Assembly: GCA_001771505.1 (NCBI GenBank)
Contig: MEUA01000031.1
Coordinates: 1 to 52,864 of the forward strand
Length of the DNA stretch: 52,864 bases
Direction: 5' to 3'
Origin: a candidate division WOR-1 bacterium RIFOXYB2_FULL_36_35
GTDB lineage: Bacteria > Margulisbacteria > WOR-1 > XYC2-FULL-46-14 > XYC2-FULL-37-10
Position numbers and translations under genes: made by a program. Below, piece by piece: positions 23,624 through 46,786 of this stretch; position 1 is the stretch's first letter, and each line of letters begins with the position of its first letter. The notes beneath the pieces are model-generated. The model saw only the letters and a list, made by a program, of their open reading frames with translations, did not search any database and was not told the origin of the DNA.

Positions 23624-26377
23624 TTAAAATCTAAATTTTTGGGCGGCGATTGATCTTCCTCCATCAGAAAGGTCTTCCCATACCAAAAGAAATTCCCTCT
23701 TTCCTGTAGGTAAAAGCTTGGGAGCGCGGGCGCCTCCCGCAGTCTCCTTTATTTTCACCCCGTTTTTTGGGAAGATTGTAACATTTGATTTATTTAAAGC
23801 TTGCAAATAAATGTTATAATTCGCACCACTCCTATAATCCTCCCAAGCTATTATTTTGTCATCATCAAGGTTTATAATAGAAGGAGAATACTGCGTCCCG
23901 GGAGCAGAACAAATATCTATTCCGTCTTTATTGTCTTTATCTTCTTTTATCCTGCCGTCCCGTTCAATTTCCTGCCCAAAAATATCCCAATTTCCAAAAC
24001 GGAAATCTTCCCATACAAAAAAAGACTCTCCTCCCCTCAAAGAAATAACTTTCGGTCGTTGCTGAGTACGTCCTACCTGACATACAGGAACACCGTCTTT
24101 AATCCATAAATTTTTTCCTTTTATATCTATTTTTTGAGCGTAGACATCAAAATTACCACTACCTTTATCCGTCCATCCAACAATAACCCCAAGATTATCA
24201 GCAGCCATCGTCAAATCTTTTTGCAGATCAGGGGCTTCACACACAGGAATTCCGTCATCCTGAAAAACAATATTGCCTGATAAATCAAGTTTTTGGGCGC
24301 GTATATCAGAATTTTTTTCACCCTTTGAGTAATCAATCCAAACAGTAAAAAGGGAGACAGGCATTATCAAGGGAGAGTCCTGTCTTCCTATAGAAAAAGA
24401 AACCAGTTTGCCTCCTCCCCCCCACAACAGAGTCCCTTTTGAATCAATTCTCTGAGTGCCGATATCAAACTTGCCTGAAGTAGTATCTTCATTTATAAAA
24501 ACAACTACAGCCCCTCCTCCCTCAAAAGAGACAATTTTTGGTTTTGTCTGCCTGGAAGAAATACGTTTAGGGGTGAGTTCTATCCCCCCGGGGAAGAGAG
24601 CTTCTCCTTCTTGATCAAAATGCTGTAGATAAATTTTTGTGCCTGAAAGTTTTCTTTCATCCTCCCATACAACATATACGCCTCCTTTACCATCTGCCGC
24701 AACTTCAGGATTTGTCTGTTCAAAATCTTGACGTGAAGCAGCAACAGCCTTATCTCCCCAAAGTAAAAAACCTTGAGAACTTAATTTTTGGGCATAAACA
24801 TTTAAATTCCCAAAACGTTTGTCTTCAAAAGCAAAATAGAAAGAGCCATCATCATCTAGAGTCGCCTGAAAGTTTTTTTGAACAACAGATCCCATCACAT
24901 TATTAATTACTTTCCCCAAATCTCCCCAAACACGCCCACCTCCCTTTGAAATTCTTTGAGCATAAATATCAAAATTTCCATCTTTATCATCCTGAAAACA
25001 GACAATTGCATCCTCTCTACTCCCAAGGGCAAGATCAGATTCTATTGCGTCATGTTGAAAGTCAGATATAAGAACTCCTTCTTTGTCAAAAATTAAAAGC
25101 GCATCGTCTGTCACTTTCTGGAGATAAAGCCTTCTTTGTCTCCCCACCCCCTCTTCCCAAACAACATAAAATGGCGATGTTCCATATATCTTAGGATTAG
25201 ATTGAATGCCTCTCTTGCTTACAACAGGCCTTGCATCTCCTCCCCATAACAAAACGCCATGTGATGAAACTCTTTGCATGTATACATCAGAATCCCCTGC
25301 ATGAGGATCGCTCCATACAAGAGTACATCCCCCATCTTTATCTGAAACAATTTCAGGAGGGGTCGGATTAGAAAATGTGTCAGCAACTTTCAATCCGTTT
25401 TTTTCAAAAAGGCTTTTTGCGTTAATGTCTAAATTTTGAATAAAAACACCAGCATCGCCAGACCTTTTATCAAGCCAAGTAATAAAAACACCGCCATTTT
25501 TATCTTTCACAATTTTGGGGTTTTCCTGATTCCCGCCGATTTTACAGACTGCGATGCCAGATGCAGGCCATGTATTTTTCCCTTCCATATCAACATGTTG
25601 AGCATAAACATCAAAATCCCCCGATCTTCTATCTGCCCATGCTAAAAAAGCTCCTCCTTTTCCATCCCCCGCAATTTCCGGATACCATTGAGTTGCTTTC
25701 TCGTTGCAAACAAGAACACCGTTTAACATCCAAAGAGAACGACCCTTTGAATCTACCTTTTGGGCATATATATCTTCTTCCCCTGATCTATAATCAAACC
25801 ACGTTATAATAACTCCATCTTCCCCATCTGAAATAATTTTTGGAAAAATCTGCCCCCCCCTTGCGGCACAAACAGGAACTCCGGTTTTGGCATATAATAA
25901 AGTGCCATTCGCGCTTACCCTCTGCAAATAAATATCAAAATCTCCATTTCTATCATCCTGCCAAACAATAAAAACCCCACCTGCATTATCCGAAATTATC
26001 TGAGGAAAAATCTGATCATTTTTAAATTTTATTAGAGGAAAAGCCGTAATCCCCCACAATCTGCTCCCGTCCTCACTTATCTTTTGCATGTATAAATCGG
26101 CATTTCCATCACGGAGATCCTCAAAAACTAAAATATAATCGGAAATACCGGATTTTATAATCTTTACATTTCTTTGAATGGTGTTTCCAGGAGAATCATT
26201 AACAATAACTCCCCCTTCTTTCCATAAAGTTTTAGGATAATTAGCGGAAGGAGAAACTTGTTCAGCCCAAATAAAACTAACAAAAAAAATAAACCCTACA
26301 ATACCCACTCCCAAAAAAAACAAAAATCGGGATTTAGGCACGCAAAATTTATTTTTTTTTTCTTTATCAATTGTCAT
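23624..26377 (-). CDS. Secreted protein with sixteen beta-propeller-like repeats
   Basis: A signal anchor (about residues 15-38, ending IWAEQ) leads into sixteen copies of a unit of about 50 residues. Each carries a form of G-G-x-x-V-x-W-x-D-x-R-x-G-x-x-D-I-Y-x-Q-x-V-x-x-x-G, for example WQDDRNGDFDIYLQRVSA. Some copies have lost the Asp or Gly residues, but the Q-x-[hydrophobic] step is kept in all. Such repeats usually build propellers or solenoids on cell surfaces, in secreted adhesins or in scaffolds. A substrate is not known. It is encoded 35 bases after the short SMC gene and probably in the same transcript. Confidence 0.85.
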   Translation of the reverse strand: MTIDKEKKNKFCVPKSRFLFFLGVGIVGFIFFVSFIWAEQVSPSANYPKTLWKEGGVIVNDSPGNTIQRNVKIIKSGISDYILVFEDLRDGNADLYMQKISEDGSRLWGITAFPLIKFKNDQIFPQIISDNAGGVFIVWQDDRNGDFDIYLQRVSANGTLLYAKTGVPVCAARGGQIFPKIISDGEDGVIITWFDYRSGEEDIYAQKVDSKGRSLWMLNGVLVCNEKATQWYPEIAGDGKGGAFLAWADRRSGDFDVYAQHVDMEGKNTWPASGIAVCKIGGNQENPKIVKDKNGGVFITWLDKRSGDAGVFIQNLDINAKSLFEKNGLKVADTFSNPTPPEIVSDKDGGCTLVWSDPHAGDSDVYMQRVSSHGVLLWGGDARPVVSKRGIQSNPKIYGTSPFYVVWEEGVGRQRRLYLQKVTDDALLIFDKEGVLISDFQHDAIESDLALGSREDAIVCFQDDKDGNFDIYAQRISKGGGRVWGDLGKVINNVMGSVVQKNFQATLDDDGSFYFAFEDKRFGNLNVYAQKLSSQGFLLWGDKAVAASRQDFEQTNPEVAADGKGGVYVVWEDERKLSGTKIYLQHFDQEGEALFPGGIELTPKRISSRQTKPKIVSFEGGGAVVVFINEDTTSGKFDIGTQRIDSKGTLLWGGGGKLVSFSIGRQDSPLIMPVSLFTVWIDYSKGEKNSDIRAQKLDLSGNIVFQDDGIPVCEAPDLQKDLTMAADNLGVIVGWTDKGSGNFDVYAQKIDIKGKNLWIKDGVPVCQVGRTQQRPKVISLRGGESFFVWEDFRFGNWDIFGQEIERDGRIKEDKDNKDGIDICSAPGTQYSPSIINLDDDKIIAWEDYRSGANYNIYLQALNKSNVTIFPKNGVKIKETAGGARAPKLLPTGKREFLLVWEDLSDGGRSIAAQKFRF

Positions 26378-26412: not shown

Positions 26413-28743
26413 TCAATCAACTTTATCTAGCTTCATAGAAATAACTCTTGAAACTCCAGGTTCTTCCATGGTTATGCCATATATATAATCCGCAACGGCC
26501 ATAGTACGTTTACTATGGGTAATAACCAACATTTGCGATGTCTCTGAAAAATTTTTTAAATAAGAAGTAAACCTAACTATATTAGAATCATCAAGAGCGG
26601 CATCCACTTCATCCAAAATACAAAGAGGACTTGGAGATGTTTTTAATATTGCAAAAAGAAGGGCTATGGCAGTTAAAGACCTTTCTCCTCCGGAAAGCAA
26701 GGAAAGATTTAGCCATTTACGCCCATTGGGCCTAACGGAAATTTCAATCCCTGCATTTAACGTATCTTTTTCTCCTTCCAGAACAATTTTAGCCTCTCCC
26801 CCCTTAAACAATTCAGAAAATACCAGCGAAAAATTGTTTGCGATAACCTCCATGGCTTTTTGAAAATCCTGCCTAGCTTTAACATCAAGTTCAGAAATAA
26901 GAGTCATTAAATTCTCTCTAGCCGATAATATATCCTGATGCTGGGACTCAATAAAAACATGCCTGTCTTTGCACTTTTCATACTCATCTATGGCAAGAAG
27001 GTTTACAGGCTCTAACGCCCTAAGTCTTTCCTTAAGCAAGTCTATCTCTTTTTTGCTCCTATTCACATTGCCGACATCCCCGTCAAAAGCCAATAAATCA
27101 GAAAATAAAATAGCATATTCCGCTTGAATATAAGTCTCTATTTGGGCAAGTTCGCTATTTATCTTTGTCAAAGAAATCTCTTTTCTCAACAATTCGGAGC
27201 TTTGTCCGTCAGAAGTGATATCATCAAATGCCGTACTATCTATGGATTGAATATCTTTTAAGAGCTTGTCTTTTTGATTTTTTAAAACATCCTTTTTTTG
27301 CTCAAAAAGCTCTTTTTCTTTTTGGAGCTTAGATACAATTTCACTAATAGGCATTTTTTCAAAATCTTCTGTTTGCCTTATAATTTCATCAAGCCTCTTT
27401 TCTGCTTTTATTAAATCATCCCTTAAACAAGTTAACTTTTCCTGTTTTTCTTTTAGCTCTTTTTGGCGAGTGGCAATCTCCGCTTCTATTATATTAAACT
27501 CCCTTTCTAGCAATTCTCTAAAGCGTTCTATAGAGACATCTTCTTTTAATCCATCCCAAGCTTTTCCAAAACAGGAAACAAGTATCGCCTTAAGTTTTTG
27601 AGAAGTATCAACCGTAAGGCGTATAACTTCTTTAAAATCTCCAAACTCCTCCAAATTCATAGATGAAGAATTTTTGCTTTTGTTTTGAATTTCTTTTCTT
27701 TTTTCACTTAAAGAATTTAAAACGTCATTTACCTTTTTTATTTCAAAAGCCAAAAACCTCTCTTCTTCTTTTATGTCCCTGACCTTGTTTTTTTCCTCAA
27801 AAAGATGCCTCTCTTTTTCTATGATTAAATTCCCTCTCTCTTTTTCTATTTCATCTTTTACATTTTCCAATCTTTGGAAAACATCATTTAATTCTGTTTC
27901 ACATAACTGCAAATCCTTTTGTTTATGAACCCTTTCCTCTTTTAATTTACGGAGTTCTTCTTCTTTTTGAGTTAAAAGTTTACGCAAAGCTTCAAGTTCC
28001 TTAGTTACACTCTCTTGCTTCTGCAACAGTTGTTTGGCCTGTTTATTAAAAGCGGACAGCTCCAACAAACGCAATTCCCCTTGAATTTCCTTATATTCTC
28101 TTGCAGCTTTTGCTTGTAATTCAAGAGATATAAGCTGCTCCCCTATTTCAACTTTCAAATCCGAAATCCTAAGCAAGTTTTGTTCAGACAATATTAATTT
28201 TCTTTCCGCTTCGGTTTTACGAAATCTATATTTGTTAATCCCCGCAACCTCTTCAAAAACAGCACGCCGGTCCTCGGGCTTAGAAGATAAAATAGCATCC
28301 ACTTTCCCTTGGCTGATAATAGCCAATGATTCCGTGCTTAATCCCGTGTCTAAAAACAAATCTCTTAGATCTTTTAAGCGACAAGATTGTCCATTGATTA
28401 AAAACTTGCTTTCTCCATCACGAAAAGTTCTTCTTTTTACGCAAACTTCATTATAATCAACCGGCAAAGATCTATCGGAATTATCAAAAACCAAAGAGAC
28501 CTCGGCCATAGAAAGTGCTTTTTTGGTTTCAGTCCCCGCAAAAATCACCTCGGGAACAGAATTAACTCTAAGACCGCGAATATTTGTTTCTCCCAATACA
28601 AAACGAAATGCATCTACGATATTACTTTTTCCGCATCCGTTAGGCCCCACAATAGCTGTAATGCCGGTCCCTGAGTCAAATATAATCTCTTCTCCATCAG
28701 CAAATGTTTTAAACCCTTTAATTTCTAAAGACTTAAGATTCAT
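26413..28743 (-). CDS. SMC-family chromosome ATPase with short arms and a nearly absent hinge
   Basis: Both half-ATPases are clear. The N-terminal head has FKTFADGE, Walker A GPNGCGKS (33-40) and the Q-loop ISQGKVD (144-150). The C-terminal head has LRALEPVNLLAIDEYE, the signature LSGGERS (684-690) and Walker B PLCILDEVDAALD (706-718). These are SMC hallmarks, not RecF or SbcC. The total of 776 residues is far below the roughly 1150-1200 of bacterial SMC. Each coiled-coil arm is about 170 residues. In place of a hinge of about 150 residues there is one segment of about 50 (355-410), whose LKAILVSCFGKAWDGL faintly recalls the first half of an SMC hinge. The ATG at 28743, not the longer GTG/ATG reading, starts the classic MNLKSLEIKGFK sequence. 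Confidence 0.88.
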   Translation of the reverse strand: MNLKSLEIKGFKTFADGEEIIFDSGTGITAIVGPNGCGKSNIVDAFRFVLGETNIRGLRVNSVPEVIFAGTETKKALSMAEVSLVFDNSDRSLPVDYNEVCVKRRTFRDGESKFLINGQSCRLKDLRDLFLDTGLSTESLAIISQGKVDAILSSKPEDRRAVFEEVAGINKYRFRKTEAERKLILSEQNLLRISDLKVEIGEQLISLELQAKAAREYKEIQGELRLLELSAFNKQAKQLLQKQESVTKELEALRKLLTQKEEELRKLKEERVHKQKDLQLCETELNDVFQRLENVKDEIEKERGNLIIEKERHLFEEKNKVRDIKEEERFLAFEIKKVNDVLNSLSEKRKEIQNKSKNSSSMNLEEFGDFKEVIRLTVDTSQKLKAILVSCFGKAWDGLKEDVSIERFRELLEREFNIIEAEIATRQKELKEKQEKLTCLRDDLIKAEKRLDEIIRQTEDFEKMPISEIVSKLQKEKELFEQKKDVLKNQKDKLLKDIQSIDSTAFDDITSDGQSSELLRKEISLTKINSELAQIETYIQAEYAILFSDLLAFDGDVGNVNRSKKEIDLLKERLRALEPVNLLAIDEYEKCKDRHVFIESQHQDILSARENLMTLISELDVKARQDFQKAMEVIANNFSLVFSELFKGGEAKIVLEGEKDTLNAGIEISVRPNGRKWLNLSLLSGGERSLTAIALLFAILKTSPSPLCILDEVDAALDDSNIVRFTSYLKNFSETSQMLVITHSKRTMAVADYIYGITMEEPGVSRVISMKLDKVD

Positions 28744-28824: not shown

Positions 28825-28870
28825 TTTCACCCCGATTATTCACCCCGATTAGGAAATCGGGGTTCATTCC
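28825..28870. repeat. Tandem palindromic repeats upstream of the envelope operon
   Basis: A half unit TTCACCCCGATTATT is followed by the full palindrome CACCCCGATTAGGAAATCGGGGTTCA. It lies between the divergent smc-like and envelope operons, before the promoter of the latter. Confidence 0.75.
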
Positions 28871-44969: not shown

Positions 44970-45131
44970 CTAATCTAAAACAGCAAAGCAGACTAATCCT
45001 ACAAGTATCAACATAAATCCTACCCCACCCCTCACCAACAACAAAACATCTCCCCACCACACAACAATAGCCCAAACTCCAAAAGCCACAAAAACAACAC
45101 CCAATACCAACTTAATTAATTTGCTTATCAA
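44970..45131 (-). CDS. Small two-helix membrane protein at the end of parB
   Basis: This 53-residue frame starts with TTG at 45131 and has an ideal Shine-Dalgarno GGAGG (minus strand, 45140-45144) eight bases upstream, inside the parB end. It overlaps parB by 20 bases in another frame. The product has two hydrophobic helices: LVLGVVFVAFGVWAIVVWW (about 8-26) and, after GDVLLLVRGG, GFMLILVGLVCFAVL (38-52). Small proteins with a W/WW-rich first helix and a Gly hinge are often encoded in operons of little-studied bacteria. The function is unknown. Coupling with parA-parB suggests co-expression. Confidence 0.7.
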   Translation of the reverse strand: MISKLIKLVLGVVFVAFGVWAIVVWWGDVLLLVRGGVGFMLILVGLVCFAVLD

Positions 45132-46038
45132 TTTCAATCCCTCCTTCTGTTACAAACACAGGTTCAACTCTTTTAACCTTTTCTCCCAAAATAATATCCA
45201 AAATCCTTTCAAGGTCTTCCTGAGAAAAAAAATCTATTTCAATTCTGCCACGATTTTTATTCCCTCTAAGGTGAACTTTGGTTGCCAAACAAAAAGTAAG
45301 TTTCTCAAGCCATGGTTTAAGTTCATCATCAATTTTCACAGCTCTTTTTGAGATTTTCTTGTTTTTTGAAGGTTTTGGCCCGCCATAAACAATAAGCTCT
45401 ACATCTCTCACGCTAAGCTTATTTTTTATAATATCCCCAAAAATCAATAATCTCTTTTTACTGTCAGAAAGAGATAAAAGAGCTCTTGCATGGCCGGAAG
45501 AAATCTCTCCCTTACGAAGAGAATCACGCATCTCTTCAGGCAGTTCATTTAATCTTAGCATGTTTGCAATTGTGGAACGATTTTTACTGACTTTATTTGC
45601 TATGTCAATTTGGCTCATGCTAAACTCAGAAAGCAATTTGGAATATGCTTCAGCTTCATCCATGGGGTTTAAATCTTCCCTCTGTAAATTTTCTATTAAG
45701 GCCAACTGAACAGACTCTTGATCGCTAAAATCTTTAATAATCGAAGGGATAACATTAAGTCCTGCTATTTTTGCGGCACGAAGCCTCCGTTCTCCTGCAA
45801 CCAGTTCATAATTTCCTTTTCTTAAACGAACAAGAATAGGCTGGGCGACTCCAGTGCTTTTTATGCTCTCTGCAAGTTCTTTCAAGCTATCTTCATTAAA
45901 AACTGTTCTTGGCTGACGCGGGTTCGGAATAACTTTATCTATAGGAATATTCACAATTGTTCTTCCGCCGGTAAAAACAGACCCTTCAGGAATTAACGCT
46001 GATAAACCTCTGCCTAAACCCTTTTTATTCATCGCCAA
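45112..46038 (-). CDS. parB: Chromosome-partitioning protein ParB
   Basis: The 308-residue product has the ParB N-terminal CTPase motifs IPNPRQPRTVF and GERRLRAA, the ENLQREDLNPMDEAEAY box, a helix-turn-helix (MSQIDIANKVSKNRSTIANMLRL) and a C-terminal dimer domain. It should load at parS sites and act with ParA. It overlaps parA by 14 bases. I found no perfect parS (TGTTTCACGTGAAACA) in the window. Confidence 0.95.
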   Translation of the reverse strand: MAMNKKGLGRGLSALIPEGSVFTGGRTIVNIPIDKVIPNPRQPRTVFNEDSLKELAESIKSTGVAQPILVRLRKGNYELVAGERRLRAAKIAGLNVIPSIIKDFSDQESVQLALIENLQREDLNPMDEAEAYSKLLSEFSMSQIDIANKVSKNRSTIANMLRLNELPEEMRDSLRKGEISSGHARALLSLSDSKKRLLIFGDIIKNKLSVRDVELIVYGGPKPSKNKKISKRAVKIDDELKPWLEKLTFCLATKVHLRGNKNRGRIEIDFFSQEDLERILDIILGEKVKRVEPVFVTEGGIEIDKQIN

Positions 46039-46786
46039 TTACCTCCCTGCTTAATTTTTCATAGGCCAACGCCCCTTTTGATGTAGGATCATAAAACATT
46101 ATTGGCTGGCCAAAACTTGGGGCTTCAGCCAAACGCACATTTCTAGGTATGATTGTTTGAAAAACTTTTGCGCCAAAATGTTTACGGGCCTCTTCTACAA
46201 CTTGATTGGCTAAAACAGTTCTCTGGTCGTGCATCGTAAGAAGGACACCTCCAACTTTAAGCATAGGATTTAGCCTCTCTCTAACAAGATCTAACGTCGA
46301 AATAAGCTGACTTATCCCTTCCAGGGCATAATATTCACACTGTATAGGGATCATAACTTCATCAGAAGCGGTCAATGCATTAACAGTTAAAAGATTTAAG
46401 GAGGGGGGGCAATCAATCATTAGATAATCATAAATATCTTTTGCAGCAGAAAGCGCTTTTTTCAATCTAAACTCCCTCTCAAAAACCGATACCAGTTCAA
46501 CTTCAGCTCCAGCCAAACGGGATGTCGCGGGAATAATATCAAGATTACTCACAATTGTCTTCTTAATAGCATCAATAACAGGAACTTGATCAACAAGGAT
46601 GTTATATATGCACATTTCAAGACTTTGTCTTTCAATCCCACAGCCAACCGTTGCATTTCCTTGAGGATCTATATCTATCACCAAAACTTTTTTATTAAAA
46701 GAGGCTAAATAAGCAGCCAAATTAACCGTAGTGGTTGTTTTACCAACCCCACCCTTCTGATTAACAAAGGAAATTATTGCTCCCAT
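46025..46786 (-). CDS. parA: Chromosome-partitioning ATPase ParA
   Basis: The 253-residue product has the deviant Walker A NQKGGVGKTTTT with the signature Lys at residue 10 (FVNQKGG), VIDIDPQGNATVG, DCPPSL and a C-terminal half with VVEEARKHFG and RNVRLAEAPS. The ATP-dependent ParA drives segregation with ParB; this Soj-type is chromosomal. It starts a transcript with a promoter whose -10 lies nine bases before the ATG. Confidence 0.96.
   Translation of the reverse strand: MGAIISFVNQKGGVGKTTTTVNLAAYLASFNKKVLVIDIDPQGNATVGCGIERQSLEMCIYNILVDQVPVIDAIKKTIVSNLDIIPATSRLAGAEVELVSVFEREFRLKKALSAAKDIYDYLMIDCPPSLNLLTVNALTASDEVMIPIQCEYYALEGISQLISTLDLVRERLNPMLKVGGVLLTMHDQRTVLANQVVEEARKHFGAKVFQTIIPRNVRLAEAPSFGQPIMFYDPTSKGALAYEKLSREVIGDE

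Follow-up and report, generated by a model that had tools for sequence, protein, structure and literature searches.

The hinge is commonly regarded as an essential, near-universal component of SMC rings. How much of such a ring can be taken away? In B. subtilis, cells whose Smc carried the Rad50 zinc hook in place of its hinge grew normally on rich medium, and according to the authors' conclusion it does not matter for segregation how the dimerisation domain is folded; functional shortening of the arms reached down to 253 aa only, and natural prokaryotic SMC arm lengths may include a minor mode at 163 aa (Burmann et al. 2017, PMC5344682). Wadjet JetC deprived of the segment from elbow to hinge acts on DNA when a disulfide closes the ring. 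This engineered 'core-only' SMC still extrudes DNA loops, is unable to pass obstacles and loses its activity once the disulfide is reduced, i.e. it needs linked arms (Liu et al. 2025, PMC12647877). These constructs suggest that the basic SMC motor may dispense with the hinge, provided that something else closes the ring. A 2025 proposal sees obstacle bypass as the conserved role of the hinge, with SMCs that have no hinge channel tending to longer arms as compensation (PMC12647877). Hinge-less Smc as a kind has been known since 2025, when such proteins were described on the basis of metagenomic ORFs of marine Actinobacteria and were taken to suggest biology of a new kind (Sussfeld et al. 2025, PMC12153180); they form one actinobacterial clade, and their ScpA/ScpB context was not given. 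In the open-licence literature searched, we found no report of hinge loss in SAR11, SAR86, Patescibacteria or the class studied here.

The window analysed here, a stretch of 52,864 nucleotides from a bacterium of the class WOR-1 (hereafter the class), encodes a short-armed Smc of this kind. Like the proteins of Sussfeld et al., it combines SMC heads and an antiparallel coil with neither hinge nor CXXC zinc hook, and it is not found beside a regular SMC (PMC12153180). Unlike them, by their description, it probably belongs to a separate lineage, in which it occurs class-wide, together with ScpAB and parS. With canonical Smc-ScpAB, as in B. subtilis or in family f10 of the same phylum, it shares orthologous heads, the joint, ScpA, ScpB and ParB-parS, but it lacks the hinge and about half of each arm and carries a 51-residue helical tip instead. 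Engineered zinc-hook Smc and Mini-Smc are similar in that the hinge was replaced or the arms were shortened with function kept; zinc-hook Smc is man-made and owes its dimerisation to the hook (PMC5344682), whereas the class Smc is natural. The Wadjet JetC core likewise consists of heads and head-proximal arm with the elbow-to-hinge part deleted, but it is an engineered, disulfide-closed plasmid-defence SMC (PMC12647877) and the class Smc a natural, chromosomal one. MukB, Wadjet-II/III and Acetobacter Smc also have no open hinge channel; they keep a hinge, however, and tend to longer arms (PMC12647877), and the class Smc does neither. New in the present case are the class-wide fixation, the setting with ScpAB and ParB-parS, and repeated hinge loss coupled to short arms.

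The smc frame is uninterrupted over its 776 codons (Table 1). Its conserved start is the ATG at 28743, the GTG at 28830 being merely the mechanical start of the ORF. A preliminary description of this DNA had given the protein 776 residues in an open frame, with no simple frameshift, and had called its heads standard SMC; both statements agree with what we find. The protein scores 705 bits against SMC_prok_B (curated cut-off 567). Both of its ends match solved Smc heads, so that the split ABC ATPase head of bacterial Smc is present, and every ATPase motif is intact: in addition to Walker A, LSGGE and Walker B, there is a Q-loop at residue 143, a D-loop at 716 and an H-loop at 742. Mean pairwise identity of the N-terminal head half is 81% within one subgroup of the class. 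By descent, the window protein is a true Smc ortholog minus one defining domain. Just downstream of smc, at 23624-26377 (-), the window encodes a secreted-looking protein of 917 aa with repeated DxDIYxQR-type units.

Table 1. Features of the smc gene and of the parA- and parB-like genes in the window.
Feature	Residues	Position	Strand	Basis
smc gene, hinge-less short-armed Smc	776 aa	26413..28743	(-)	Open frame; SMC_prok_B 705 bits; ortholog in 30/31 class genomes
N-terminal half of ATPase head	1-165	28249..28743	(-)	Sequence match to solved Smc heads 5xg3, 3zgx
Walker A GPNGCGKS	33-40	28624..28647	(-)	Invariant in 27 class members
N-terminal arm helix	169-360	27664..28239	(-)	AlphaFold helix; Smc profile alignment continues to residue 359
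Arm motif RDxxxxxRF, about 30 residues below tip	322-330	27754..27780	(-)	Class-specific pattern
Tip segment, in place of hinge and hinge-proximal arms	360-410	27514..27666	(-)	Profile gap 363/816; all-helical model
Predicted tip helix, hydrophobic, candidate dimer interface	364-399	27547..27654	(-)	AlphaFold helix 364-399, local pLDDT about 55-72
C-terminal arm helices including head-proximal joint region	402-577	27013..27540	(-)	AlphaFold; profile positions 816 onward
C-terminal half of ATPase head	579-776	26416..27009	(-)	Match to solved heads (5xg3, 3zgx); invariant columns
ABC signature LSGGE	683-687	26683..26697	(-)	Motif scan
Walker B CILDEVD and catalytic glutamate	708-714	26602..26622	(-)	Motif scan
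parB-like gene, putative condensin loader, on the smc contig about 16 kb off		45112..46038	(-)	Translation read by eye: ParB/Spo0J
parA-like gene		46025..46786	(-)	ORF translation read by eye as ParA/Soj family

What became of the hinge? The SMC_prok_B alignment falls into two blocks, profile positions 2-363 (protein about 3-359) and 816-1181 (protein about 411-772), and the 51 residues between them occupy the place of 452 profile positions, that is, of the hinge and the hinge-proximal arms. The long antiparallel coiled-coil arms of bacterial Smc are present at about half length, as the preliminary description had estimated: the helices predicted by AlphaFold (169-360 and 402 to about 577) measure about 180-190 residues each, compared to 344 for the arm of B. 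subtilis Smc (PMC5344682). The Pfam hinge family SMC_hinge (PF06470) was matched neither by the window Smc nor by any of 27 class Smc proteins, and in none of 31 class genomes, while the same search succeeded in 8 of 8 family f10 genomes and in 10 of 14 control genomes, its sensitivity being limited in that it misses some real hinges, such as that of the Caulobacter control. Could a hinge be present, then, yet diverged beyond recognition? The failure of PF06470 on genuine hinges speaks for this, but the tip has only 51 residues between the profile blocks, where a hinge takes about 200. When a profile of the class tips was aligned by hhalign with a hinge profile made from full-length Smc, the probability of similarity was 0.2%; the full-length f10 Smc of the same phylum (L114) reached 100%, a hinge-bearing Smc of the Uhrbacteria class (L133) 99.8%, and even the reduced, diverged hinge of a SAR11-like Smc (L034) 90.9%. 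In the AlphaFold model, built with 27 sequences (mean pLDDT 77), the tip is one helix between two short loops, with no strands, at a moderate confidence of about 55-74 pLDDT; the best PDB fold matches of the model are Smc heads with coiled coil. We therefore consider an undetected hinge very improbable, and a hinge remnant inside the tip is rejected on the hhalign value. That this Smc has no normal hinge, as first described, is confirmed by the Pfam, hhalign and model results alike. The same description had the hinge reduced to a segment of about 50 residues (355-410); the position was almost exactly right, and is refined here to 360-410, but at 0.2% the segment does not qualify as a reduced hinge.

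Head and coil minus a hinge is also the outline of SbcC/Rad50, and a Rad50/SbcC-like or RecN-like repair protein, rather than a chromosomal condensin, would fit that outline. The Rad50 and RecN models, however, score 53 and 65 bits on the window Smc against 705 for SMC_prok_B, and a CXXC zinc hook at the coil apex is absent from all hinge-less sequences scanned. ScpA and ScpB are kept, moreover, and the head tree places the protein with full-length Smc, which makes a repair protein extremely improbable. Nor were MukB or MksB among the reported NCBIfam and Pfam matches, SMC_prok_B being the best.

The short hinge-less Smc is fixed across the class. An ortholog is present as a single copy in 30 of 31 class genomes and in 29 of 29 genera, the sole exception being a genome that is 69% complete. 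Proteins with both ends measure 716-905 aa. No second SMC was found in the genome of the window, and there is one SMC per genome across the class. The preliminary description had asked whether relatives share the short form and whether a second, full-length SMC exists in the same genome, and these counts answer both questions. It had also raised the possibility of a deletion made in assembly. The source assembly of the window is in 67 contigs, which leaves room for such an artefact or for a pseudogene, but the same architecture recurs in 30 of 31 separate assemblies, one of which is a single contig of 1.67 Mb, and the sequences, at 41-72% identity, contain no stops and retain all ATPase motifs. 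The relatives thus refute this explanation, which we regard as practically inconceivable. In a tree of the heads alone, the class forms one clade (SH-aLRT 99) that groups with full-length Smc, namely as sister to that of the same phylum (support 89); family f10 there keeps a hinge-bearing protein of about 1193 aa. The deepest branches within the class are families f8, f5 and f6, which have the longest proteins (905, 828 and 844 aa), and this fits a loss of the hinge first and further shortening of the arms afterwards. In many genomes of other families elsewhere in the phylum, several of them more than 95% complete, neither a full Smc match nor ScpA nor ScpB was found (G032, G034, G035, G037, G039, G040, G042, G043, G045, G047, G048, G050-G052 and G054-G056). 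In G053, scpA and scpB lie adjacent on L123, yet the query used gave no Smc match.

The partners of Smc were retained as well. Of 31 class genomes, 27 have ScpA and 26 have ScpB, with misses confined to genomes at most 89% complete. The genome of the window has one match to each, as the preliminary description had proposed to check, and the two genes are adjacent, next to what we take to be a tryptophanyl-tRNA synthetase gene; the kleisin and ScpB of an Smc-ScpAB condensin are both in place. Sites for ParB were searched as TGTTNCACGTGNAACA with at most one mismatch, and the reversed pattern served as control. parS was present in 29 of 31 class genomes and the control pattern in 2. Two exact, origin-proximal copies occur in the genome of the window, flanked by genes that we read as presumably mnmE, jag and yidC; they sit on another contig, and there is none inside the window itself. 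ParB-parS is accordingly present, parS by pattern and the parA and parB genes by eye. Since ScpA, ScpB, ParA/ParB and origin-proximal parS are retained and no second SMC was found, the class Smc is very probably a working chromosomal condensin.

How, then, would two copies be held together? That a hinge-less Smc must dimerise by another route or act in a different mode, as first suggested, is reasonable. When the arms are scanned for their most hydrophobic 21 residues, these turn out to lie close to the tip in 24 of 27 class members, comprising 21 of 24 short forms and all 3 longer ones, and we propose on this ground that tip-helix dimerisation may substitute for the hinge. The motif RDxxxxxRF, the locally best conserved element of the distal arm, is a second candidate contact; 25 of 28 class sequences contain it as the pattern RD-(4 to 6)-RF, against 1 of 90 others, so that it is nearly class-specific. 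We infer the following sequence of events. Hinge and hinge-proximal arms would have disappeared jointly in an ancestor before the radiation of the class, leaving heads, joint and head-proximal arms linked by a short helical tip. This protein, as the only Smc of the organism, would power an Smc-ScpAB condensin that is ordinary in other respects, and ParB would probably load it at parS. Two copies would pair at the far ends of their arms via the hydrophobic tip helix, and perhaps via RDxxxxxRF, and ATP-driven head engagement and closure by ScpA would yield a small ring that entraps DNA. Such a natural core-only SMC would extrude loops with neither a hinge channel for passing obstacles nor long arms to thread them, and bypass would be reduced. 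For loop extrusion, loading by ParB and behaviour at obstacles, this picture extrapolates from work on other species.

Alternatively, the arms may remain unjoined at the tip, as in an open clamp. The monomers may then be held together solely at the heads, where ATP-dependent engagement, bridging by the kleisin ScpA and the dimer of ScpB would act, or along the arms by contacts such as RDxxxxxRF. The tip sequence is the least conserved part of the class Smc (local identity about 0.17-0.32), which is weak for an obligate dimer interface and counts against tip pairing. The conservation and near class-specificity of RDxxxxxRF point in the same direction, as does SAR11, in which, as in SAR86, the hydrophobic peak of the arm is not at the midpoint. 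On the other hand, 24 of 27 class members share the hydrophobic tip helix, and the truncated Wadjet core is active only with linked arms (PMC12647877). We find an unjoined tip unlikely, and judge it fairly probable that this is a natural core-only Smc-ScpAB condensin, built on the only Smc of the organism and paired through its helical tip.

Is hinge loss confined to this class? Among the matches listed in a contig scan, short Smc proteins came from SAR86 (727 aa), Pelagibacteraceae (about 800-870 aa) and Uhrbacteria (750 aa). In the SAR11 order, 57 of 58 genomes match SMC_prok_B, with apparently complete frames of about 800-890 aa, and the AlphaFold model of one SAR11 Smc is likewise all-helical in the middle; absence of the hinge was judged here by length, hhalign and model, and Pfam was set aside because PF06470 misses Caulobacter. 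An SAR11-like alphaproteobacterial Smc (L034:3995-6595) has a reduced hinge at about residues 375-490 and is a possible intermediate in hinge loss. In the Patescibacteria-like Uhrbacteria class (115 genomes), most of the listed Smc frames measure about 735-950 aa and a minority exceed 1000. Fifteen of its Smc sequences were inspected in detail: the hinge is clear in L133, L134 is probably hinge-bearing by length and profile coverage, and L145, at 1080 aa, has none. In this last protein (L145:363-3602, G120) the arms have apparently been re-lengthened by internal duplications in both coil halves, with repeats around LEAQGQFDxAWLNNKHxEL and IARSxVKFDAxKIN.

A single origin of all hinge-less forms, as one clade, was rejected (p=3.65e-9), as was a common origin of the class and the Uhrbacteria class (p=1.06e-5), and SAR86 Smc sits with full-length Smc of Shewanella and Pseudomonas (support 100) in the head tree, which is of the 'quick' type, with groups named with the data in view. 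A tip domain common to all lineages was rejected too, since the tip profiles of the class, SAR11, SAR86 and the Uhrbacteria class show no convincing match to one another: only the two Uhrbacteria-class forms match each other (94%), and the 11% match of the class to the shorter Uhrbacteria form falls in the arm and not in the tip. Quantised arm lengths were likewise rejected, inter-head lengths of hinge-less forms being spread over 317-332, 342-386, 401-418, 453-485 and 515. From the rejected single clade, the placement of SAR86 and the unmatched tips, the sequences indicate that the hinge was lost several times separately, in this class, SAR11, SAR86 and the Patescibacteria-like class. More tentatively, and with rather more doubt than confidence, we suggest that core-only Smc-ScpAB may have evolved at least 4 times, in small genomes for which bypass would be dispensable, with the tip remade differently each time.

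The class Smc runs against the trend proposed for channel-less SMCs: its hinge is absent and its arms are shorter, not longer. With short arms and no hinge channel, bypass would be either unneeded here or achieved in a different way. Whole lineages without a hinge, of which the class still has ScpA, ScpB and parS, amount to a natural test of hinge function. With such natural proteins one can ask which tasks fall to the hinge and the distal arms, what closes a minimal loop extruder, and whether a small chromosome can manage without bypass. In SAR11 and other abundant groups, the annotation label 'SMC' conceals a major change of architecture. If our reading is true, some of the most abundant bacteria would segregate their chromosomes without needing obstacle bypass, and each lineage would have rebuilt dimerisation at the far end of the arms with a helical tip of its own.
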